Origin: Haloquadratum sp.
Lineage (GTDB): Archaea > Halobacteriota > Halobacteria > Halobacteriales > Haloferacaceae
DNA length: 57,256 nucleotides
Reading direction: 5' to 3'
NCBI GenBank assembly: GCA_028275165.1
Contig: JAQCNF010000095.1
Location: 1 to 57,256 of the forward strand
The notes beneath the pieces are model-generated. The model saw only the letters and a program-made list of their open reading frames with translations. It was not told where the DNA came from and did no database searches. The first letter of the stretch is position 1; the number at the start of each line of letters is the position of its first letter. The translations under genes and the position numbers were made by a program. Shown piece by piece: positions 14,216 through 34,031 of this stretch.

Positions 14216-14490
14216 CCTCTCTAATCATCCCTCAGTGGTATCAGAGAAGTGCACTGGGAGTACAGTACCACGGATTTGAATCGTGAAAACATGTCAGAGG
14301 ACATTGCACAGCTCAAACAATCGTATTCCACTGTGAACCGCCCCGAGGTCAACTGAAGTGGTTCCCGAGACACGCTTGGAGTTATGGCGGCACTGATTTG
14401 TGACCCCGAGGCACTTGCCCTGGTCGTCCGTACATCGAGCATCATGTGGTATCTAAACGCGGGTGGTTTATGTCTGAGGGGACACCCTGT

Positions 14491-16302
14491 ATGAGTATGA
14501 GCGAGGCAGACACGTCTGAGGGGACACCTACTGGTCGGGAGATATGGATCGAAAAATACCGACCAGAGACGCTTGATGATATCTATGGACAAACGGATAT
14601 CATCGAGCGATTACAGTCATATGTCGAGCGTCAGGAACTCCCTCATCTGTTATTCTCTGGGCCTGCCGGCATTGGAAAGTGTGTCACCGGCGATACTCCT
14701 GTTCTTACAAGCGATGGACTCACTCCAATTGCGGATGTGGTTGGATCAGTTGAGGGGTTTGGACGACCAGACCCTCATCTCAAGGTGTGCACACTCACAG
14801 ATACCGCCACATTTAGATTTGTTTCTCCATCTCATGTGTTCGCACAGACGAGTGAACGACTTATTCGGGTCCAGACCGTGGCAGGCGGAGAGATGCGTGT
14901 CACCCCCGAGCACAAGTTCTTGACTCGAGGTAAAAATGGGGTTGTTTGGCAACCAGCGGCACGCCTCAGTGATGGAACAGCAATCGCACGGCCAGCATCA
15001 CTTCCTGCGCCGCCTGTGCCATCATCAGCACTATCCAGCTCAAGCGCACGAGATATCGGTGAGGCAGTGAGGGCTGAACACCCGCACCCTGAAGCGATAC
15101 CAGCTTCGTCGTCGACAACAGCCCTCCTGCAAGCCAGCCGCTCCACACGCGAGGCATTCCTTGAGGCTGTCTTCGGTGGGGAAGCATACATGAAAAATCA
15201 GAGTACCGCTATCGAATCTGAGTGGACACCGCTCGTGAGCTATGTCGCAGCGTCGACCGGCAAAGAGACACAGATTGTCGAACGAACGACATCACAAACT
15301 CGTCTCGACATCCGACCTCCCTCAGCTCCGGAAACTCATGTGGGAGCGCGGCGTTCAAACAGGGAGGCGTATGCAGACGGTGGGGCAATCTATTTCGATA
15401 CCGTCGAAGCGATTGATACACTGAGTGAGCCGACACGCGTGTACGACTTGACAGTCCCACAAACACGAAATTATGTCGGTGGGCGACTCCCGACAGTCCT
15501 GCATAACACAACCAGCGCAACCGCGATTGCGCGTGCAGTCTACGGTGAGGACTGGCGGGGGAACTTTTTGGAACTCAACGCCTCAGACGAACGCGGCATA
15601 GACGTTGTCCGCGATCGAATCAAAAGCTTCGCACGCTCATCATTTGGGGGATATGACCATCGAATTATCTTTCTTGACGAAGCTGACTCGCTGACGGATG
15701 ACGCACAGTCTGCACTCCGCCGTACAATGGAACAGTTTGCAGACAACACACGATTTATTCTTTCGTGTAACTATTCCTCGAAAATCATCGACCCGATACA
15801 GTCACGCTGTGCGGTCTTTCGGTTCACACCACTTGATGATGAAGCAATTGCAAATCAACTCCGCGATATCGCATCTGCGGAGAGCATCGAGATGACTGAA
15901 AACGGACTGGACGCGCTCGTCTATGCGGCAAGTGGGGATATGCGACGTGGGATTAATTCATTGCAAGCGGCTGCTACGACGGGTACAGTGGTTGATGAGG
16001 AGACAGTGTATACTGTCACGTCGACAGCGCGGCCTGAGCAAATCGAAGCAATGGTTACCGCAGCGATTGAGGGAGACTTCACAACTGCACGGTCTGATTT
16101 GGAGACACTGCTCGTTGAGACTGGTATGGCCGGAAGCGATGTTATCGATCAGCTTCACAGAATCGCGTGGAATCTCGAACTTGATCAAGAAACAACCGTT
16201 CGATTACTCGAGCGAATTGGCGAAGCTGATTACCGAATCACAGTCGGAGGAAACGAGCGTGTACAGTTAGAGGCGCTCTTAGCGACATTAGCGGCATCTT
16301 AG
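14491..16302 (+). CDS. rfcS: Replication factor C small subunit, intein-containing
   Basis: RfcS is the AAA+ subunit of the clamp loader that places PCNA on DNA. The reading frame encodes a host protein of about 327 residues interrupted by a 276-residue intein. Host motifs: [18 protein letters not shown] at the N-terminus, Walker A GPAGIGK/TTSA split by the intein, [10 protein letters not shown], Walker [11 protein letters not shown], the SRC motif (IQSRCAVF), and the C-terminal collar. Start choice is uncertain. ATGs at 14470, 14491 and 14497 are in frame; the word gtctgaggggacacc occurs at 14472 and again at 14514, so the N-terminal MSEGTP is duplicated. A TATA-like ggtttatg at 14465 favours 14491 or 14497. 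Confidence 0.93.
14680..15507 (+). mobile_element. Intein in rfcS (P-loop site), endonuclease eroded
   Basis: A 276-residue in-frame insertion between Lys of GPAGIGK and Thr of TTSATA. It begins with Cys ([13 protein letters not shown], splicing block A), has the block B region with TPEHKFL, and ends with block [18 protein letters not shown] then LHN, followed by the +1 Thr. These are the residues needed for Cys1/Asn-terminal splicing with a Thr nucleophile. The middle is low-complexity, rich in Ala, Ser and Pro, with only a trace of a LAGLIDADG helix ([12 protein letters not shown]). So splicing is likely to work but homing activity is probably lost. The insertion interrupts the ATP-binding loop, so splicing is obligatory for function. 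Confidence 0.93.
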
Positions 16303-23940: not shown

Positions 23941-26900
23941 ATGGCACAGGCACCGCAGGATTCTCACGACCTCACCAAGCAATTTATTGAATTCTTCCGG
24001 CGCTACTACCGCGAGGAGATTGGAACTCTTGCACAACGGTATCCGAATGAGAAGCGCTCGCTATTCATTGATTATGACGACCTCTACACGTTTGATGCGG
24101 ATTTAGCCGCTGATTATCGCCGTGAACCTGATCAACTGACCGAATACGCTGAGGAGGCCCTTCGACTCTATGACCTCCCAGCGGATGTAAAGTTAGGACG
24201 AGCTCACGTCCGGATGGAGAATCTTCCTTCAACTGTCGATATCCGCTCGATTCGCGTTCATGATGATCACATTAGCCGACTGATTGCGGTCCAAGGAATC
24301 GTGCGGAAGGCTACTGATGTTCGCCCGAAGATCACTGAAGCGGCGTTCGAATGTCAGCGCTGTGGAACAATGACGTACATCTCACAAGCAGACACTGGAT
24401 TCCAAGAACCACATGAATGTCAAGGCTGTGAACGACAGGGTCCGTTCCATATCGATTTTGACCAATCAGAGTTTATCGATGCACAGAAGATCCGCGTTCA
24501 AGAGAGTCCTGAGGGGCTCCGTGGCGGAGAAACTCCACAAAGCATCGATATTGATCTTGAAGATGATATCACCGGCCAAGTGACTGCTGGCGATCACGTT
24601 ACCGTCAACGGGATATTACATATTGAGCAACAGACTGAGAGAAATGAAAAGACACCCATTTTCGATCTTTACATGGACGGTGTCTCACTGAGTATCGAGG
24701 ATGAGGAGTTTGAGGATATGCAGATCACAGACGACGATATCGCCAATATTATCGAACTCTCAAACGATGAAGATATCTATGAAAAAATGGTCGACTCGGT
24801 TGCTCCCTCGATCTATGGATATGAAGATGAAAAATTAGCGATGATCCTGCAGTTGTTTTCAGGAGTGACAAAGCATCTTCCAGATGGGTCACGAATCCGT
24901 GGTGACCTCCACATGTTACTGATTGGTGACCCTGGAACAGGAAAGTGTGTCGATGGGGATACACTCGTTTCTCTTGCAGACGGCTCTGAGACACCGATTA
25001 GGGAATTAGTTGAAGCGAACTTGGAATCTCCAAAACGCGTTGATGACGGTGTGTGGGACCGTGTTAATATTGCAGTCCCATCGATGCGACCTGATGGATC
25101 GTTTACCACGCAGCAGGCAACACGTGTCTGGAAACGTGAAGCCCCAGAGCAGATGTTCCAGATCCAGACCACAGGCGGAACACAGCTGACTGTAACGCCC
25201 TCTCATCCACTCTTTGTGGTTCGGGGTGGGACACCGACAGCTATCATCGCGGCCAATCTTGAGATTGGACAATCAGTGGCTGTAGCCAATACAGAGATAG
25301 ACTGCACTGAGACAGACACTGGTGCAAGAACGCTTCAATCACCTCTCAGTGACGGTGGGATTACTGTTGAGCAGATAACAGCAATCGAAGCCGTTGACCC
25401 GGCTGAAGAATGGGTATACGATCTTGAAATTGCACAGACCCACTCATACATCACGAATAAGATTGTCTCACATAATTCTGCGATGTTGCAATACATTCGC
25501 AATATTGCCCCCCGGTCAGTCTATACCTCAGGAAAAGGAAGCTCTTCGGCAGGCCTGTGTGTGACTGGCGACACCAGAATTCATACAAAAGATGGATTTA
25601 TCAGAATTCGAAATCTCGTTGAACAAAAGCTTCCAGACCCTGTTTCAGTCGAAACATCAGCGACCGACGAACGCGGAGTATACACGCTTGATCAAGGGAC
25701 ACAGACGATTGAATCGACCCAAAGCTCGCACATCTGGCGTATGCCAGAGAAACTGTGCCGACGAGTTGAGACAGCCCGAGGAAAGGAACTCGAACTATCA
25801 GTAAATACCCCCGTGCTCGTTCGCGGTCAAGACCAGACACAGTGGAAGGCCGTCAAGCACGTTGAACCAGGAGAGTATATTGCAGCGCCACAGTATCGTG
25901 GGATTGAGCGATCAGATCCACCGATCGATGATTTTATTGAGTACACTGGTCAGGAAACAGAACTTCTGCTCGATGAGAAGTCGGCTGCTTATCTTCGTGA
26001 CCGACTTATAGAAGCGTTTGAAACACCTCAGAGGGCGGCCGCATCTCTTGGCCTCAGCGAGGAGACCATTCAAAATGCACTCGCATGCCGACCCATTGCT
26101 GTCGGGCAACTCGATCACATACTGAGCACGCTCGGTGAGAGCCGAGAAGAGATTACAGTCTCTCGAGCGAGGGCATCAGAGAGTGATGAAATCCGTATTC
26201 CACGTCACTTCGATACAGAACTCCTCTATCTCACTGGACTCATTTTTGCCGAGGGCGAGTTCACCTCTCAAAACTCAGTGAATGAGTCCAAATCAATCCG
26301 GATCTTCACCGCCGACGAAACTCTGCTGGAGCGAGCAGCAACGATTATTAATTCACGATTTGACATCGACGTTGAGATTCAGGCTACAATGCGGAATAGC
26401 GAAACTTCCTCCATTCATCTTGATAATCCGATACTTCTTCGATTCTTTGAGAATCTCGGACTGGGAGTTACACAAGAGACGAGCGAACTTGACGCACGCC
26501 TGACAAACGCCTCAAACATTGACGCGTTTGTACAGGGGCTAATGGATGCGAAGGCGTCTCTTAGCTCTCCACAACGGTCTCCTTCGAGAGTGCAACTTCG
26601 CCTCAACAGTGACTCACTTGCTATACAAATCCAACTGATCCTCGAAACATATGGCATCAAAGCGACGCGCCGCAGTCGAGGCCAGTATCGATCGCAACAC
26701 ATGAGCGAGCATCGAACAAACGAGGAAGAGCGAGCCCAATATTACATCCAGATACCTGAACAGAGTGTTGCCCGATACGCAGAGGTCATCAACTTTCGCT
26801 CAACAACGAAACATGACGCGCTTGCGGAGATGGTGGCGGCATCAAACATACACGAAAATGACTGCTCTGGCGAAAGCACACAAGTGATTGGTATAGATCG

Positions 26901-29900
26901 AGATGGAGGGAACGGCCTCCTGCGCCAACAGTTGAGTCCAGGTGATCAGCTACTTCAAGCTGAGACTCGTCCACTTACTACCTCTGCCACCACCCATAAT
27001 AGACGTGGCGATACCGAAGCCACTGCAGAGGCTGATGTCGCATGGGAACGAGTTGTCACAGCCGTCGATATAGGTCCCAAAGAGGTGTTCGATCTGACAG
27101 TCCCATCGACACACAATTTCATTGGAAATGGGATTGTCACGCACAATACTGCAGCAGCAGTACGAGATGACTTCGGTGACGGACAGCAGTGGACACTTGA
27201 GGCAGGTGCGCTTGTCCTCGCAGACAAGGGCACAGCTGCCGTTGACGAGCTAGACAAGATGCGGTGTGTTACAGGAGACACGCTCGTTCATCTCGCAGAT
27301 GGAAGCCTCAGACGCATTCGAGACATCGCAGACGAAGCTGCACAGACTGGACAGATTGAATCACTCTCAAATGGGCGGACAATCCGCGATACTGACATCG
27401 AAACTCATGTATGGACGATGAGTGATGAGGGTACCCTCATTCCCCGCCCTATCACAGCAATTCACAAGTACGAAGCACCTGAGGCGCTCATTCAGGTAAC
27501 ATTGGCATCCGGTGAGACAGTGACTTGCACTGCTGATCATCCCTTCTTTATTTTGGAAGACGGCGAGCGTAGCAAGCAGCCGGCAAAATCATTAGCACCG
27601 GGTGAGTTGACAATTGTGCCAACGCAACTCTCGCCGGCGATAAGCGATGGCGGGGTTGATCTACAAGCGGGTTCAGATATGCATGAGGGCGGTATCGACT
27701 CATACCCATCGCCGGCACTGGCTGCTATATTCGGGTACATGTGTACGGAAATAGCGAGTTTTTCACCTGCACGTGCGGAGTCTGACATCTGTTTTAGTGG
27801 CTATGAGACAGGATTGCAGACACCACTCAAACAAAACGCCCAGGCAGCATTCGAAGCAGTCTCTCTCTGCGAACACGGAGAGGTGCATTCAGATGACTCT
27901 GAGACAATCCAGCTCACGGCCAAGGGTGTGATGAACGAATTGAGTGACGCAGGCATACGTCGCGACACGGTTGACAGCCGACAACTCATCGAAACAGTGA
28001 CAACTGGATGTCAAAAGGCCAGACAACAATTTATCCGCGCCCTTGCAGATGTCAACGGAAAAGTAACCGAACAGCAGATACAGATCACTTCGACACACAG
28101 AGAGCTTCTCCTCGGTGTACAACAGCTCCTCACTGCATTCACCGTTAGTGCTTCTGTGCGGCGCATTGCCGCTGAATCGGAGAGCGAACAGTACGAACTG
28201 GTCATCGCTGACCAGGCATCGATCAGGTCGTTTGAGCGGCTGATTGGATTTACCATGCGTCGAAAACAGAGAGCAATCGCTTCAGCCGCGAAGTATGATT
28301 CAGAAGACAATCCACGGCTGAGTGATATCGACGGACTCAGTGAGATTTATGCGAGCATTCGAGAATCTCTCCGACTCGATCATTCAGAGTGCGGGATAGC
28401 TGCGGAGACATACCGCACGTTCGAAACCAATGAGACGAGTCTCTCTGTCCAGCAGGCGCACGATGTAATTGAGTCATTTGAACAACGTGTACAGGAAGCA
28501 CATCGTCAAAAGCCGACGCTTCAAGAGGCCTCGTTGACTGAATTGCTCACACTGGCTGATGAGTACCATCTTTCCGTCTCGGAGTTCGCCAATCAGCCAC
28601 ACTGCACTCAACAACAGATCCAGACTCGTTCCGAAACGAGTGAGCGTCTCCTCACTGCGGTGCGGAATCAACTGAGTGATATTCTTGCAACTGTATCATC
28701 AGTTAATCTGGATGGGATCCGGTCTATTGTTGAAGGCGATGTGAGGTGCTGTCGGATCGAAGACGTCAGCACTATTTCAGCAGCAACTGGTAATGATCAG
28801 CGAAAATATGTCTATGATTTGACTGTCAAAGAGACTCATAACTTTGTCGCGAATGGTATTGTCGTTCATAATTCAGAGGATCGGAGTGCGATGCATGAGG
28901 CACTTGAACAGCAATCATATCACCCACAGTCAGAGATACTTCTTGCTGATGGCCGACGGATCAATATTGGTCCTTTCGTTGACACACTGATGCAGAAGTC
29001 TCCTGAACAGGTCACTGAAGGAGTTGACTGTGAACTCCTTCCAACGGATGACATCGACATACATACCGTTGATTTTGAAACGAATGACATCAGGAAAACG
29101 TCTGTCGACCGCGTGAGTAGACACGCTGCTCCAGATCGATTCATTCGTGTAAGCTTCTCGAATGGGCGGTCAGTGACTGTCACACCTGAGCATCCAATGT
29201 TTGTTGAACAGGGGGGTGAGATTGAGACGACTGCTGCAGAAAATATGAGCATAAATGACCGAGTTCCGGCTCCACGACAGCTTCCAGACACTGAGGACTC
29301 AGCGCTGGACGGAAAGAAGTGCAACACGAAACCGAGCGATATTGACCGCTCAGATGACCTCTCGCCTGTAGGTGGAGAGATTCTCGGAATACTTATCGCA
29401 ACAGAGTATTTTGACGCTCACACACACCCACCTGATGGTGCCCTTTCGGATGTTGGTGCGGACGTACTCTCTCGACTGGACTCTCTCCTCGAAAGAACAA
29501 CCGAAGGAACTGAATCTCCTGCGAGTCGACAGATCGAAACCCGGCGACAACGCGAGGAAGTTCTTCGCCGTATTCAATTCAATCTTGTCGATTCAGCGTT
29601 CGACCCATCGTCTGCCCGGATTCCGCGCGTTGTGCTTGCTGGCTCGGAGACAATTATTCGTCGGTTCCTTGTGGGTGCATTTGCTGTTAATGACACACAT
29701 GGATCTGACGCAAGCACGTTTTCGGCAACTGTCGCTAGCCTTGCAGAGGATTACGCTGATGCGTTGCTCAAACTTGGTATCTCTTCGCAGATTCAACACG
29801 ATGCGAGCATGGATGTGTGGAAAACAGTCGTTGAAGAGCACTCACGGAAGCGATTCACCGAATGTATCGCCGATGTGGTCAACAGGCAGTATGACCGGCC

Positions 29901-31293
29901 GGAGCATCTTGGCAAACCTGTCAATGCGGGTGTTGAGACTACCGATAATCGCCTACCAATATATTCTACATCAAAAGACAAACTCTCAACTCAGCATACT
30001 GGTACAAATGTAAACAAACGCCGACAGACAAATTGTTTTGAAGCGAATATGTCACATATTTCGCCCGACTGTGCTGGCATTACAGTTCCTAAACTGAGAG
30101 CTACGGACATCTGGCCAAGTCAACAATGTGTGGGCCGGCGACCAGGGTCTGTGACTGATACACCACACCAGTGCTACAGTGGTGAGTCGACAGCACCAAA
30201 CAGACAAGCGCACTCTGCCAGGTGGAACGTGGCCGATACCAACGCCAACGATGCAGACACATGTGATCCTCGCAGCAGTGTCGATTCAGACTCAGCGCTC
30301 CAATATTATCATGTGACCAATATTGAAACAATTCCCAATCAAGGACCAGATGCATGTGAGTGGGTGTACGACATTACTGTCGAACCGACACACACCTTCA
30401 TTAGTCAAGGAGTCGTTCTTCATAATTCCATCTCCGTTTCCAAGGCAGGCATCAATGCAACACTCAAATCCCGCTGTTCGCTGTTAGGCGCTGCTAATCC
30501 AAAGTACGGGCGCTTCGACCAGTATGAGTCGATCGGTGAACAAATTGATCTTGAGCCAGCACTCATCTCGCGTTTCGATCTCATATTTACGGTCACAGAT
30601 AATCCAGATCCTGAAAGAGATGCTGAATTGGCAGAGCATATAATAAACACGAATTACGCTGGTGAACTGCATACACAGAAATCGAAGCTTCCAAGCTCAG
30701 AATTTAGTGAAAATGAAGTCGATTCAGCGACTGAGGAGGTCACACCAGAGATTGAAGCAGAACTTCTCCGCAAATACGTGGCTTACGCGAAACGGAACTG
30801 CTATCCAACGATGACTGACGCCGCCAAGGAAGTGATCCGTGAATTCTACGTCGATTTCCGAGCAAAGGGTGCTGATGAAGATTCTCCTGTGCCTGTCACT
30901 GCTCGAAAACTCGAAGCGCTTGTTAGACTGTCAGAGGCCTCTGCTCGGTTACGGCTCTCCGATACTGTGGATAAGCGCGATGCACTTCGCGTGACAGACA
31001 TCGTTGAGTCGTGTCTCCGGGACATCGGCATGGATCCTGAGACAGGCGAATTTGATGCCGATATCGTTGAAACAGGGACCTCAAAGAGCCAACGTGACCG
31101 AATTAAGAATCTTCTGCATCTTATTGAGGCGCTTGAAACAGAGTATGAGAGTGGCGCACCGTATGAAGAAGTTGTCGAACAAGCAGAGAGTGAACTCGGA
31201 TTAACTGAGACAAAGACTGAAGAACAGATTGAGGATCTGAAACGCAAGGGAGAGTTATATGAACCACAGATGAACACTCTCCGGACGACATAG
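23941..31293 (+). CDS. mcm: MCM replicative helicase carrying four inteins
   Basis: A 2450-residue frame that reduces to a standard archaeal MCM of about 703 residues once four inteins (177, 530, 536 and 504 residues) are removed. MCM is the hexameric helicase that unwinds DNA at the fork. Host parts in order: N-terminal domain with a zinc motif (CQRCGT and CQGC, residues 138-160), Walker A GDPGTGK at 329-335, SSSAGLTAAAVRDD, Walker B GTAAVDELDKMR, the sensor-1 region LLGAANPKYGRFD, the arginine finger SRFDLIF, and a C-terminal winged helix. All four inteins fall in the AAA+ core within a joined stretch of about 85 host residues. Every junction restores a conserved MCM sequence, so the protein should be active only after four splicing events. 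Confidence 0.97.
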   Translation: MAQAPQDSHDLTKQFIEFFRRYYREEIGTLAQRYPNEKRSLFIDYDDLYTFDADLAADYRREPDQLTEYAEEALRLYDLPADVKLGRAHVRMENLPSTVDIRSIRVHDDHISRLIAVQGIVRKATDVRPKITEAAFECQRCGTMTYISQADTGFQEPHECQGCERQGPFHIDFDQSEFIDAQKIRVQESPEGLRGGETPQSIDIDLEDDITGQVTAGDHVTVNGILHIEQQTERNEKTPIFDLYMDGVSLSIEDEEFEDMQITDDDIANIIELSNDEDIYEKMVDSVAPSIYGYEDEKLAMILQLFSGVTKHLPDGSRIRGDLHMLLIGDPGTGKCVDGDTLVSLADGSETPIRELVEANLESPKRVDDGVWDRVNIAVPSMRPDGSFTTQQATRVWKREAPEQMFQIQTTGGTQLTVTPSHPLFVVRGGTPTAIIAANLEIGQSVAVANTEIDCTETDTGARTLQSPLSDGGITVEQITAIEAVDPAEEWVYDLEIAQTHSYITNKIVSHNSAMLQYIRNIAPRSVYTSGKGSSSAGLCVTGDTRIHTKDGFIRIRNLVEQKLPDPVSVETSATDERGVYTLDQGTQTIESTQSSHIWRMPEKLCRRVETARGKELELSVNTPVLVRGQDQTQWKAVKHVEPGEYIAAPQYRGIERSDPPIDDFIEYTGQETELLLDEKSAAYLRDRLIEAFETPQRAAASLGLSEETIQNALACRPIAVGQLDHILSTLGESREEITVSRARASESDEIRIPRHFDTELLYLTGLIFAEGEFTSQNSVNESKSIRIFTADETLLERAATIINSRFDIDVEIQATMRNSETSSIHLDNPILLRFFENLGLGVTQETSELDARLTNASNIDAFVQGLMDAKASLSSPQRSPSRVQLRLNSDSLAIQIQLILETYGIKATRRSRGQYRSQHMSEHRTNEEERAQYYIQIPEQSVARYAEVINFRSTTKHDALAEMVAASNIHENDCSGESTQVIGIDRDGGNGLLRQQLSPGDQLLQAETRPLTTSATTHNRRGDTEATAEADVAWERVVTAVDIGPKEVFDLTVPSTHNFIGNGIVTHNTAAAVRDDFGDGQQWTLEAGALVLADKGTAAVDELDKMRCVTGDTLVHLADGSLRRIRDIADEAAQTGQIESLSNGRTIRDTDIETHVWTMSDEGTLIPRPITAIHKYEAPEALIQVTLASGETVTCTADHPFFILEDGERSKQPAKSLAPGELTIVPTQLSPAISDGGVDLQAGSDMHEGGIDSYPSPALAAIFGYMCTEIASFSPARAESDICFSGYETGLQTPLKQNAQAAFEAVSLCEHGEVHSDDSETIQLTAKGVMNELSDAGIRRDTVDSRQLIETVTTGCQKARQQFIRALADVNGKVTEQQIQITSTHRELLLGVQQLLTAFTVSASVRRIAAESESEQYELVIADQASIRSFERLIGFTMRRKQRAIASAAKYDSEDNPRLSDIDGLSEIYASIRESLRLDHSECGIAAETYRTFETNETSLSVQQAHDVIESFEQRVQEAHRQKPTLQEASLTELLTLADEYHLSVSEFANQPHCTQQQIQTRSETSERLLTAVRNQLSDILATVSSVNLDGIRSIVEGDVRCCRIEDVSTISAATGNDQRKYVYDLTVKETHNFVANGIVVHNSEDRSAMHEALEQQSYHPQSEILLADGRRINIGPFVDTLMQKSPEQVTEGVDCELLPTDDIDIHTVDFETNDIRKTSVDRVSRHAAPDRFIRVSFSNGRSVTVTPEHPMFVEQGGEIETTAAENMSINDRVPAPRQLPDTEDSALDGKKCNTKPSDIDRSDDLSPVGGEILGILIATEYFDAHTHPPDGALSDVGADVLSRLDSLLERTTEGTESPASRQIETRRQREEVLRRIQFNLVDSAFDPSSARIPRVVLAGSETIIRRFLVGAFAVNDTHGSDASTFSATVASLAEDYADALLKLGISSQIQHDASMDVWKTVVEEHSRKRFTECIADVVNRQYDRPEHLGKPVNAGVETTDNRLPIYSTSKDKLSTQHTGTNVNKRRQTNCFEANMSHISPDCAGITVPKLRATDIWPSQQCVGRRPGSVTDTPHQCYSGESTAPNRQAHSARWNVADTNANDADTCDPRSSVDSDSALQYYHVTNIETIPNQGPDACEWVYDITVEPTHTFISQGVVLHNSISVSKAGINATLKSRCSLLGAANPKYGRFDQYESIGEQIDLEPALISRFDLIFTVTDNPDPERDAELAEHIINTNYAGELHTQKSKLPSSEFSENEVDSATEEVTPEIEAELLRKYVAYAKRNCYPTMTDAAKEVIREFYVDFRAKGADEDSPVPVTARKLEALVRLSEASARLRLSDTVDKRDALRVTDIVESCLRDIGMDPETGEFDADIVETGTSKSQRDRIKNLLHLIEALETEYESGAPYEEVVEQAESELGLTETKTEEQIEDLKRKGELYEPQMNTLRTT
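24946..25476 (+). mobile_element. MCM intein 1, mini-intein at Walker A
   Basis: 177 residues between GDPGTGK and SAMLQYI, directly after the P-loop lysine. Starts CVDGDTLVSLADG (block A), has TVTPSHPLFVV (block B with the TxxH-type motif), and ends EWVYDLEIAQTHSYITN then SHN before +1 Ser (blocks F and G). There is no room for an endonuclease domain, so it is a minimal splicing element that can no longer home by itself. Confidence 0.94.
25558..27147 (+). mobile_element. MCM intein 2, with LAGLIDADG endonuclease region
   Basis: 530 residues between SSSAGL and TAAAVRDD. Starts CVTGDTRIHTKDG; ends VFDLTVPSTHNFIGNGIVTHN before +1 Thr. Two LAGLIDADG helices are visible: LTGLIFAEGEF, which keeps an acidic residue at the catalytic position, and VQGLMDAKASL, where Lys replaces it. 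A helix-turn-helix-like segment (AAASLGLSEETIQNAL) precedes them. Cleavage is doubtful because one of two catalytic acids is missing. Confidence 0.94.
27265..28872 (+). mobile_element. MCM intein 3, degenerate endonuclease
   Basis: 536 residues between VDELDKMR and SEDRSAMHEA, just after Walker B. Starts CVTGDTLVHLADG, block B is TCTADHPFFIL, and it ends YVYDLTVKETHNFVANGIVVHN-like (final residues VHN) before +1 Ser. The endonuclease helices are weak: AAIFGYMCTEI and FIRALADVNGKV, where Asn replaces the second catalytic acid. The central 300 residues are well preserved in frame. Confidence 0.94.
28915..30426 (+). mobile_element. MCM intein 4, unusual Ser1, degenerate endonuclease
   Basis: 504 residues between HEALEQQ and SISVSKAG. 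The first residue is Ser (SYHPQSEILLADG) instead of the usual Cys; block B is TVTPEHPMFVE and the end is EWVYDITVEPTHTFISQ then LHN before +1 Ser. Endonuclease helices ILGILIATEYF and FLVGAFAVNDTH both lack acids at the catalytic position. The stretch before block F (roughly residues 350-450) is low in structure and Cys/Asn/Thr-rich, suggesting relaxed selection. Confidence 0.92.
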
Positions 31294-32127: not shown

Positions 32128-32466
32128 GTGTTGCTGGTTGTGACATACTCAACGCAGGCACGTCAGACACTCCGAAATATCTGTCGGCATCACGAGGAGA
32201 CGGTTATCCGACGGTTTGGCCGAGCAGCATTACTCGCTGAGACACAACTCGGGGCTTTCATGACCTGCCGGTTGCGTGCACGCTTCGGCGAAGCCGTTCA
32301 AATTGAGCGAACAGAACCGTTCAATGAATTTCAGAAGGTGCCTTCCTCAGTGCGAGAGGCAGCAAATGCATATGCAGAACGAGAGAATCCATATCTCCCA
32401 TATCCTGCCTTTGCCACCCAGCATAATTATCCATCGGCCGAGCAGATGCGACACAGAGACCTATGA
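32128..32466 (+). CDS. Uncharacterised haloarchaeal protein of the mcm-minD cluster
   Basis: 112 residues starting at GTG (MLLVVTYSTQARQTLRNI). A second GTG 12 bases later (MTYSTQARQ) has a TATA-like ttatata about 25 nt upstream and could be the true start. Conserved-looking features: CRHHEETVIRRFGRAALLAET, TEPFNEFQKVP and AYAERENPYLPYPAF. No enzyme motif is visible. It overlaps the next gene by 4 bases (ATGA type), so it is part of a coupled run of four genes ending in a MinD-like ATPase. Confidence 0.78.
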   Translation: MLLVVTYSTQARQTLRNICRHHEETVIRRFGRAALLAETQLGAFMTCRLRARFGEAVQIERTEPFNEFQKVPSSVREAANAYAERENPYLPYPAFATQHNYPSAEQMRHRDL

Positions 32467-33362
32467 GCTCGTCGGGTTATACTGTTGTCCTGCCATCGGG
32501 GGTGACCCACACTGGATTTACGATTGATGTTCGTCGCACCCAGTGGGATACCACCTGTTGGTGTCGAGTACTTCGACACGGTGGACCACAGACGCCTCAT
32601 TCTCCCTGTCTTTTCAGTCCCCCACCATCACAATTGCAGTATGTACTCCCAGCACTCACGCCAGATATTCGCGTCAGCCGTCGGGCATGTTTGCTGGCGA
32701 TAGGCGCCGACCGAGGTCTTCCGACGCCATACGATGCTGCTCTTCAATCAGCACTTACGGGTCGTCATCAAGCAATTCAGCACTTCACGACGCCCGGACT
32801 CGCTGCACTCCGTCGAGAAGTCGCAGAGCTGACTCATGCTGTAGAGCGCGCACGAGAGAAGGCTGCTGCACGTCGTGGTGCGCTCAGTGCATTTCGCACG
32901 CATGGACAAGAAGATTCGACCGACTCGGTGTACGAAACGTATCAAATCGCTCTTCAGGAGTTAGCTGAAACTGAGACAGCTTACGCCGCGGCCACGCAAC
33001 GACTCGAAATCGCTATCAAAGCAGCTCGCAAACGCCGAACTTCCCGTGAATCCTGTATGCAGCACGCTGATTCTATCAACAATCTTCGTCGTCGGATTCG
33101 TCAACATCGCTTAGCGATACTCAGGGAGGAGTTTAAATCGCAGTCATCTCCGATTCAGCTGACACAAGATGATGCGATATCACTCTCAGCAGCACAAATA
33201 GCTCAACTTAACAAGGCAGTCGAGATGTTACGATTTGGTACGACCCCAGCACCGGTCATTGTTGAAGCGACACTGTTGAGCGCGCTTGATACGCCCGAGA
33301 TGCTCATCACGTCGTTAGGTGGGTTAATCCTTGTTACTCCACCACCTGATCTTAAATACTAA
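32463..33362 (+). CDS. Uncharacterised coiled-coil protein of the mcm-minD cluster
   Basis: 299 residues. The N-terminal third is rich in strands and aromatic residues. Residues about 110-230 form a long charged coiled coil (LRREVAELTHAVERAREKAA through RRRIRQHRLAIL), and the C-terminus returns to a mixed fold (VIVEATLLSALDTPEMLIT). No signal peptide or membrane segment. The coiled coil suggests an oligomeric or scaffolding protein. It overlaps the previous gene by 4 bases and is followed after 12 bases by the next. Function unknown. Confidence 0.8.
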   Translation: MSSSGYTVVLPSGVTHTGFTIDVRRTQWDTTCWCRVLRHGGPQTPHSPCLFSPPPSQLQYVLPALTPDIRVSRRACLLAIGADRGLPTPYDAALQSALTGRHQAIQHFTTPGLAALRREVAELTHAVERAREKAAARRGALSAFRTHGQEDSTDSVYETYQIALQELAETETAYAAATQRLEIAIKAARKRRTSRESCMQHADSINNLRRRIRQHRLAILREEFKSQSSPIQLTQDDAISLSAAQIAQLNKAVEMLRFGTTPAPVIVEATLLSALDTPEMLITSLGGLILVTPPPDLKY

Positions 33363-33374
33363 CCCGGTCCCAAC

Positions 33375-34031
33375 GTGCGTGTGCACTCCGTGGTCAATAC
33401 GAATCAGGTGTCCGGCGTGACGCTCGTCTCAGTCATTTTGAAAAACACCGCTCCAATCAAGCGACGGGTGAAAGTGGTGAATGAACTTGATGGACCTATC
33501 TTGATGCCATTAACAAACGGCACCCCCGAGATTGGATGGAATCAAACTGGATATACCACGGTCATGGCATCTGGAGTCAAGTGCTCGGTGGGGTACGCAT
33601 GCCCATGTCTCACGTCTATCGAAACGAACGATACAGCAGATATCGTAAAAATCGTCACTGAGCCATCCACGACCCAGCGTGCACCTGCTGCGGTCAAACA
33701 TGCAATCCGGACACTGGGTGCTGCCCGCCCACCAGCAGACGCAATTTCAGCGACATCAATAGATGCTGAACTTCCATCTGCCGTTGAGAGATGGTTATAT
33801 GAGATATCAACGCGAGTTGAACGGGCAGAGGCCCTTACGGATCCACCTCTTCAAGCGATGTCTGACACCGCCAGCCGGCATAGGACTACCTCCTGTCCTG
33901 TCCCTGTTCTTGAAGAGTTATATCGTGACCAAGCGCACCTACAGACGATCCGATCACGCGCTGAGGGGCTCACACAATATCTTGAGCGAGTCATCCCCGA
34001 TCAAGAGTTTCTTCAGTGTAAAAACGAATGA
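33375..34031 (+). CDS. Uncharacterised haloarchaeal protein before the MinD-like gene
   Basis: 218 residues starting at GTG (MRVHSVVNTNQVSGVTLVSV). The first 100 residues look like a beta-sandwich (VTLVSVILKNTAPIKRRVKVVNEL, as in NEW3/CARDB-type folds); residues 120-215 are helical with a charged C-terminal stretch. Two cysteines at VKCSVGYACPC are near each other. I do not know the family. Its last codons overlap the start of the MinD-like gene by 4 bases, so the two are translationally coupled and may work together. Confidence 0.78.
   Translation: MRVHSVVNTNQVSGVTLVSVILKNTAPIKRRVKVVNELDGPILMPLTNGTPEIGWNQTGYTTVMASGVKCSVGYACPCLTSIETNDTADIVKIVTEPSTTQRAPAAVKHAIRTLGAARPPADAISATSIDAELPSAVERWLYEISTRVERAEALTDPPLQAMSDTASRHRTTSCPVPVLEELYRDQAHLQTIRSRAEGLTQYLERVIPDQEFLQCKNE

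Follow-up and report, generated by a model that had tools for sequence, protein, structure and literature searches.

The stretch of DNA analysed here (the window; 57,256 nucleotides from a draft genome of Haloquadratum sp., which comprises 194 contigs, is 72.9% complete and is designated G000 in our sample) carries on its forward strand, at positions 23941-31293, an mcm gene that starts with ATG and runs through 2450 amino acids as one open frame, stop-free inside. Pfam recognised in this frame MCM_N, MCM_OB, the MCM P-loop domain (in four stretches), MCM_lid and the MCM winged helix, together with four stretches of Intein_splicing (E 8.3e-72) and four of LAGLIDADG_3 (PF14528), a LAGLIDADG (DOD) homing endonuclease (HEN) domain being recognisable. 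NCBIfam identified the N-terminal and the C-terminal splicing regions of inteins four times each, and its whole-MCM model gave the unspliced frame 648.6 bits, below the cut-off of 940. The features are as follows.

23941..31293, + strand: gene of the MCM replicative helicase, interrupted in frame by four inteins; precursor of 2450 aa (Pfam, NCBIfam)
23941..24945, + strand: extein 1, 335 aa, N-terminal and OB domains and start of the AAA+ domain, with the Walker A end ...GDPGTGK
24946..25476, + strand: intein 335, 177 aa, mini-intein without HEN; Cys1, ...VSHN, +1 Ser
25477..25557, + strand: extein 2, 27 aa, C-terminal SSSAGL
25558..27147, + strand: intein 362, 530 aa; Cys1, ...VTHN, +1 Thr; degenerate LAGLIDADG HEN
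26221..26262, + strand: intein 362 block C, LLYLTGLIFAEGEF; family D replaced by E, still acidic
26527..26562, + strand: intein 362 block E, FVQGLMDAKASL; catalytic D replaced by K
27148..27264, + strand: extein 3, 39 aa, with Walker B DELD inside and C-terminal DKMR
27265..28872, + strand: intein 401, 536 aa; Cys1, ...VVHN, +1 Ser; degenerate HEN
27718..27759, + strand: intein 401 block C, LAAIFGYMCTEIAS; family D replaced by E, still acidic
28030..28065, + strand: intein 401 block E, FIRALADVNGKV; catalytic E replaced by N
28873..28914, + strand: extein 4, 14 aa, SEDRSAMHEALEQQ
28915..30426, + strand: intein 415, 504 aa; Ser1, ...VLHN, +1 Ser; degenerate HEN
29377..29418, + strand: intein 415 block C, EILGILIATEYFDA; T aligned with the family E, the alignment being unsure by one column
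29665..29703, + strand: intein 415 block E, FLVGAFAVNDTHG; catalytic D replaced by N
30427..31293, + strand: extein 5, 289 aa including the stop codon, remaining AAA+ domain, lid and winged helix

Cut at the splice-junction residues, the inteins of 177, 530, 536 and 504 aa make up 71.3% of the frame, and Pfam, NCBIfam and the junction residues bear out the sequence-only reading of this DNA, which had seen a single MCM frame split by four inteins of these lengths (71%). Removal of the inteins leaves an MCM of 703 aa with Walker A GDPGTGKS and Walker B DELD, the canonical helicase which that reading had expected and one residue above the 697-702 aa range given for core haloarchaeal MCM after intein removal (PMC3972481). 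The insertions follow host residues 335, 362, 401 and 415 of the window MCM, and the exteins between them (27, 39 and 14 residues) span 80 residues instead of the proposed "about 85". Walker B had been placed at DKMR; it is DELD, and the third insertion (site 401) lies three residues (KMR) past it. The description as a single MCM gene holds for the intein-bearing mcm, which is one frame, but on another contig of the same genome (G000:C137:71-802) part of an MCM-like sequence matched at 35% identity (E 7e-31); it is interrupted by a TAG and may be an outlier MCM or one of viral origin.

Class 1 inteins begin with Cys or Ser, end in His-Asn and are followed by Cys, Ser or Thr at +1. In the window, position 1 is in order C, C, C and S, all four inteins end in HN, and the +1 residues are S, T, S and S. 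The block B TxxH is present in inteins 335, 401 and 415, and intein 362 has SVNTP there, as does its family consensus. Pairwise identity among the four is 22-31% in alignments of at least 67 residues and higher only over shorter stretches; by this measure they are distantly alike and not recent copies of each other.

Among the best 80 of 263 loci, the nearest MCM was that of Haloquadratum sp. J07HQX50 (L046, KE356563.1), with 99% identity over the first 335 residues, compared with 84% for the two H. walsbyi-type MCMs. The window also aligned with J07HQX50 in four pieces of about 20 kb in total at 95-97% DNA identity, and on these sequence comparisons it belongs to the J07HQX50-type lineage, not to H. 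walsbyi; J07HQX50 is treated as a separate species, perhaps genus, in Lake Tyrrell assembly papers. Absence of the inteins from an assembly had been named as what would speak against the sequence-only reading, and the J07HQX50 scaffold, a separate assembly, is occupied at the same sites. Its inteins are about 93-95% identical to those of the window in the readable parts, with identical residues at the lost HEN acids, but unlike the window it has a run of N that hides where the second intein ends and the third begins, along with the 39 host residues between them. The four insertions match exactly the haloarchaeal MCM sites A-D of PMC3972481, whose letters run along the protein (335, 362, 401, 415). 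In PMC10643990 the MCM sites are lettered by discovery, and its MCM-d, between R/S or D/S and with proline in most empty alleles, fits site 401. Because the two letterings differ, we name the sites by host residue.

To describe the distribution of these inteins, we read the MCM frame at 119 loci (the window and L046-L163) and kept 116, leaving out two truncated MCM frames (L106, L123) and one at a contig end (L081). An MCM N-terminal match was found in 57 of 60 genomes, of which G036, G047, G049, G052 and G058 are left out of the loci read, and some named and other genomes in the sample may be one species. In G011, a genome of the same genus (3.5 Mb, one contig), the MCM N-terminal part was unmatched and an intein-bearing PolD is present. 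Sites 335, 362, 401 and 415 are occupied in 56, 24, 53 and 14 of the 116 MCMs, 27 have no intein, and only four carry the whole set: the window, J07HQX50, the H. walsbyi J07HQW2 record (L052) and G013 (L132). About 0.6 such genes would be expected if the sites were independent, the four observed coming from two lineages. The set itself is already known, since PMC3972481 (2014) gives H. walsbyi MCM all four inteins, a precedent that the sequence-only reading had correctly named. An earlier survey of 118 halobacterial genomes found 13 intein alleles common to two H. walsbyi strains (PMC4071816). Trees were used to ask whether the J07HQX50-type and H. walsbyi-type genes go back to one four-intein ancestor. 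In the MCM extein tree, both types fall within the Halobellus clade, where an open fork leaves them on different branches. The site-362 intein tree unites them at 98/97, with a long-branch warning, and for site 415 the grouping of the two types was not rejected (p-AU 0.27).

We then examined the two catalytic acids of the HENs, counting only MCM inteins of at least 300 aa; the J07HQX50 rows at sites 362 (465 aa) and 401 (455 aa) are partial. At site 362 both acids are kept in 20 of 24 inteins and at site 415 in 10 of 14, the losers being in both cases the window, J07HQX50 and the two H. walsbyi-type genomes. Site 401 retains both in 42 of 45 (losers: the window, J07HQX50 and L157), the two H. 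walsbyi-type genomes having mini-inteins there. At site 335 both are retained in 36 of 38, the exceptions being L103 and L160, which is shortened. At least one acid is therefore lost in all ten HEN-length inteins of four-intein MCMs versus 3 of the 111 elsewhere in the sample, although the ten stem from two lineages and are not ten events. Every one of the four-intein genes has a mini-intein at site 335, the first; among all MCMs read, mini-inteins make up 18 of 56 at site 335, 8 of 53 at site 401, 0 of 24 at site 362 and 0 of 14 at site 415. In the window, the block E acid is replaced by K in intein 362 and by N in both 401 and 415, so that none has an acid in both motifs, and inteins 362 and 401 retain the block C acid as E for D. 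We would therefore not file the three large inteins as active endonucleases, although some residual activity, such as nicking, is possible for inteins 362 and 401 because these two of the three HENs retain the block C acid. The residues replacing the site-362 acids differ between the lineages (E and K in the J07HQX50 type, C and G in the H. walsbyi type), which suggests that the HENs decayed separately.

The loss of acids in every HEN-length intein of the four-intein MCMs is apparently new. Within the open-licence literature we found no statement that Haloquadratum MCM HENs are inactive or that J07HQX50 carries the four-intein set, which is weak evidence of absence, and the word "intein" does not appear in the main text of two out of three papers naming J07HQX50.

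Inteins are also present elsewhere in the window's genome, where 15 stretches of PF14890 were read as 11 inteins: four in MCM, two in the PolD large subunit and one each in RfcS, RpoA'', Rir1, dCTP deaminase and RtcB. RfcS was confirmed by Pfam, and the host names other than MCM and RfcS come from reading of the sequence; PolB (PF00136, on another contig) seemingly has a further short intein. The RfcS gene lies in the window itself (14404-16299, + strand, about 7.6 kb upstream of mcm), with a 276-aa intein (Cys1, ...VLHN) behind the Walker A lysine. The gene read as the PolD large subunit (G000:C91, L166) has two inteins with degenerate HENs, the first of which ends in Gln, not Asn. We aligned these families leaving out low-scoring loci and those whose alignment spanned less than 75% of the query, including J07HQX50 PolD intein 1 and L248. 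Both acids were retained in 25 of 29 rows for PolD intein 1 (losers: G000, G013, G009 and G011), 13 of 19 for PolD intein 2 (losers: G000, G001, G009, G011, G013 and L281 of G079), 18 of 21 for the RtcB intein (losers: G000, G001 and L230 of G032) and 9 of 12 for the dCTP deaminase intein, where the columns are gappy (losers: G000, G001 and L253 of G032). All seven HEN-length inteins found in G000 (three in MCM, two in PolD, RtcB and dCTP deaminase) thus lost at least one acid. Judged by these alignments, HEN acid loss is not special to MCM, and it is not confined to Haloquadratum-type genomes, because other genomes lost acids too (G032 in RtcB and dCTP deaminase). PMC10643990 describes H. walsbyi polB as having three inteins still with HEN domains; inspection of the G013 polB by eye, with no family alignment, revealed no intact pair of motifs.

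The extent to which the degenerate HEN regions remain constrained was assessed from omega between the window and J07HQX50 (Nei-Gojobori), which was 0.019 for the exteins, 0.29 for the splicing domains (bootstrap 0.17-0.51) and 0.32 for the HEN regions (0.22-0.44; 71 silent and 75 replacement changes in 1065 codons). Neutral simulation at the observed transition bias, taken from fourfold sites (60 to 9), gave a mean of 0.67 (0.45-0.95) and a lowest value of 0.40 in 300 runs, and the other three bias settings gave means of 0.99, 0.76 and 0.69 and lowest values of 0.53, 0.47 and 0.40; this simulation is a simple one, and the two sequences have diverged little. For the H. walsbyi-type pair, omega by the same method was 0.37 in the HEN regions and 0.165 in the splicing domains. 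At the longer scale, the ratio of HEN to splicing-domain divergence at sites 362 and 415 was 1.6-2.75 in the four-intein genes versus medians of 1.14 (n=20, site 362) and 1.28 (n=9, site 415) for intact members, a comparison that leaves out the 388-aa site-415 intein of L135. From an omega below neutral and a long-scale divergence greater than that of the splicing domains, the HEN regions look relaxed, not free. Two of them are near full length, intein 362 having 530 aa versus 521-527 in most relatives and intein 415 having 504 versus 520-524. AlphaFold modelled intein 362 from a 23-sequence alignment with a mean pLDDT of 81.8 (low confidence at 434-489) and placed helices 220-232 and 321-332 at the two motifs. 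The best PDB matches of this model in Foldseek, TliVMA, 2cw7 (PI-PkoII), PhoVMA and PI-PfuI, are intein endonucleases, with modest top-five TM-scores by query (0.47-0.62). The model of intein 415 was poor (mean pLDDT 58.8, residues 329-460 below 50). Because both alignments consist mostly of intact relatives, the models would indicate that a HEN fold is possible, not that it has been retained.

We consider it likely that the window encodes an MCM precursor with four fixed inteins at a post-homing stage, whose nucleases would be dead and whose splicing would be kept. Homing has very probably ended in this lineage, because the mini-intein lacks a HEN altogether and each of the three large inteins is short of at least one catalytic acid. 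All four inteins would splice in the cell, and their excision from the precursor would bring Walker A and Walker B together with the following region in a working AAA+ ATPase. With the inteins fixed in the population and empty alleles gone, the nucleases, now presumably inactive, would have lost their selection; the homing-cycle model predicts HEN loss after fixation (PMC1654191, PMC8966425). The inteins would persist since only an exact deletion that keeps the frame, or recombination with an allele lacking them, could remove them from a gene that is presumably essential. As for the folding order that the sequence-only reading had asked about, the linear order of the gene suggests that splicing probably proceeds intein by intein, each as its splicing domain is finished, during translation or shortly afterwards. 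Our confidence in the post-homing reading is reduced because two of the three HENs retain the block C acid. Plain decay is also opposed by the near-full HEN length in two of the three and by an omega below the neutral simulation for the set. Two inteins of related genomes, both judged by eye without a family alignment, are counter-examples to the loss of acids: that of L307 (G009, J07HQW2), which keeps its first acid, and one in the Rir1-like gene of G013, which retains a block E acid.

The survival of three large remnants would be explained if the dead HEN regions were scaffolds required by the splicing domains (HINT-HEN mutualism), an idea that is compatible with the post-homing reading and that we regard as unlikely though worth taking seriously. 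The HEN omega, close to that of the splicing domains and below all 300 neutral runs, the lack of mini-inteins at sites 362 and 415, the predicted fold of intein 362 with its matches to intein endonucleases, and the impairment of splicing on HEN deletion in some inteins (PMC8966425) are consistent with it. However, the omega comparison relies on a simple simulation and on little divergence, intact relatives in the alignment may have lent the model its fold, the intein 415 model is poor, mini-inteins at 335 and 401 indicate that the HEN is dispensable there, and PhoVMA spliced without its degenerate HEN (PMC8966425). It is doubtful that in Haloquadratum and the J07HQX50 lineage homing is dead across nearly all inteins and the dead HENs are kept as splicing scaffolds.

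The sequence-only reading had also asked whether a late step controls replication onset, and splicing conditional on salt, redox or temperature could act as such a checkpoint on helicase activation, which we hold to be improbable. The first intein lies directly after the Walker A lysine, so the precursor is presumably inactive, and the replicative helicase DnaB of mycobacteria is reported to have inteins that splice conditionally (PMC6195587, PMC7360933), but we found no regulatory feature among the intein motifs, and relatives often gain or lose these inteins (a quick MCM tree, in which 36 forks are open, requires at least 40, 20, 25 and 10 changes of state for sites 335, 362, 401 and 415) or, in 27 of 116 MCMs, have none. 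PMC10643990 argues likewise that two of them bring no sweeping benefit. The evolutionary evidence points to old selfish inserts that have seemingly lost homing, and regulation is neither shown nor excluded thereby. Quite improbable, in our view, is that neighbouring HENs cut one allele together, homing then fails and HENs in multi-intein genes lose their use. Two active MCM HENs do hinder each other's homing in Haloferax mediterranei (PMC10643990), but the single inteins of RtcB and dCTP deaminase in G000 have lost acids too, which weakens this account, and among 17 MCMs with inteins at 335 and 401 only, one (L160) is a loser, some of the others having mini-inteins. That the gene is an assembly artefact or a pseudogene has a negligible probability: the genome is a draft, but the 2450 codons are open, the extein omega against J07HQX50 is 0.019, and same-site inserts occur in the separate J07HQX50 assembly and in the two H. 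walsbyi-type genomes.

Compared with known systems, the window MCM resembles that of H. walsbyi HBSQ001 (Q18E84; PMC3972481 Table 1) in having all four sites filled but is longer (2450 versus 2216 aa). The third intein is 536 aa in the window and a 211-aa mini-intein in the H. walsbyi-type L052 and L132, in which the residues replacing the HEN acids are also other than those of the window. Haloferax mediterranei MCM has inteins at two of the four haloarchaeal sites, both with active HENs (PMC10643990), whereas none of the four in the window looks active. A likeness to the window's inteins is offered by PhoVMA (7qst), in which the acids are gone from both LAGLIDADG helices and the architecture is kept (PMC8966425); it is, however, a single intein in a V-type ATPase, and its HEN is dispensable for splicing. 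The window thus adds to H. walsbyi a second lineage with the four-intein MCM and, set beside the reported active H. mediterranei HENs and the acids intact in 108 of 111 other MCM inteins, would provide a natural comparison for the homing-cycle model. It raises the question of why seemingly non-homing inteins persist at four sites of a presumably essential gene and whether degenerate HENs aid splicing. If homing is indeed dead across nearly all inteins and the dead HENs are kept as splicing scaffolds, maturation of the replicative helicase would depend on relics that selection cannot drop, a ratchet of complexity in a protein central to replication.

Three further observations concern the related genomes and the neighbourhood of mcm. 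The gene carrying the L307 intein reads as helicase-like, with LVGLFVADG around the intact first acid and a run of N over the second motif, and the intein is possibly a live HEN in these genomes. The names J07HQW1 and J07HQW2 seem to be swapped between record NZ_KE356561.1 (L052) and PMC3630111. Downstream of mcm, at 32128-34031 (+ strand), lie three consecutive genes which Pfam assigns to DUF7855, DUF7856 and DUF7857, families of unassigned function.
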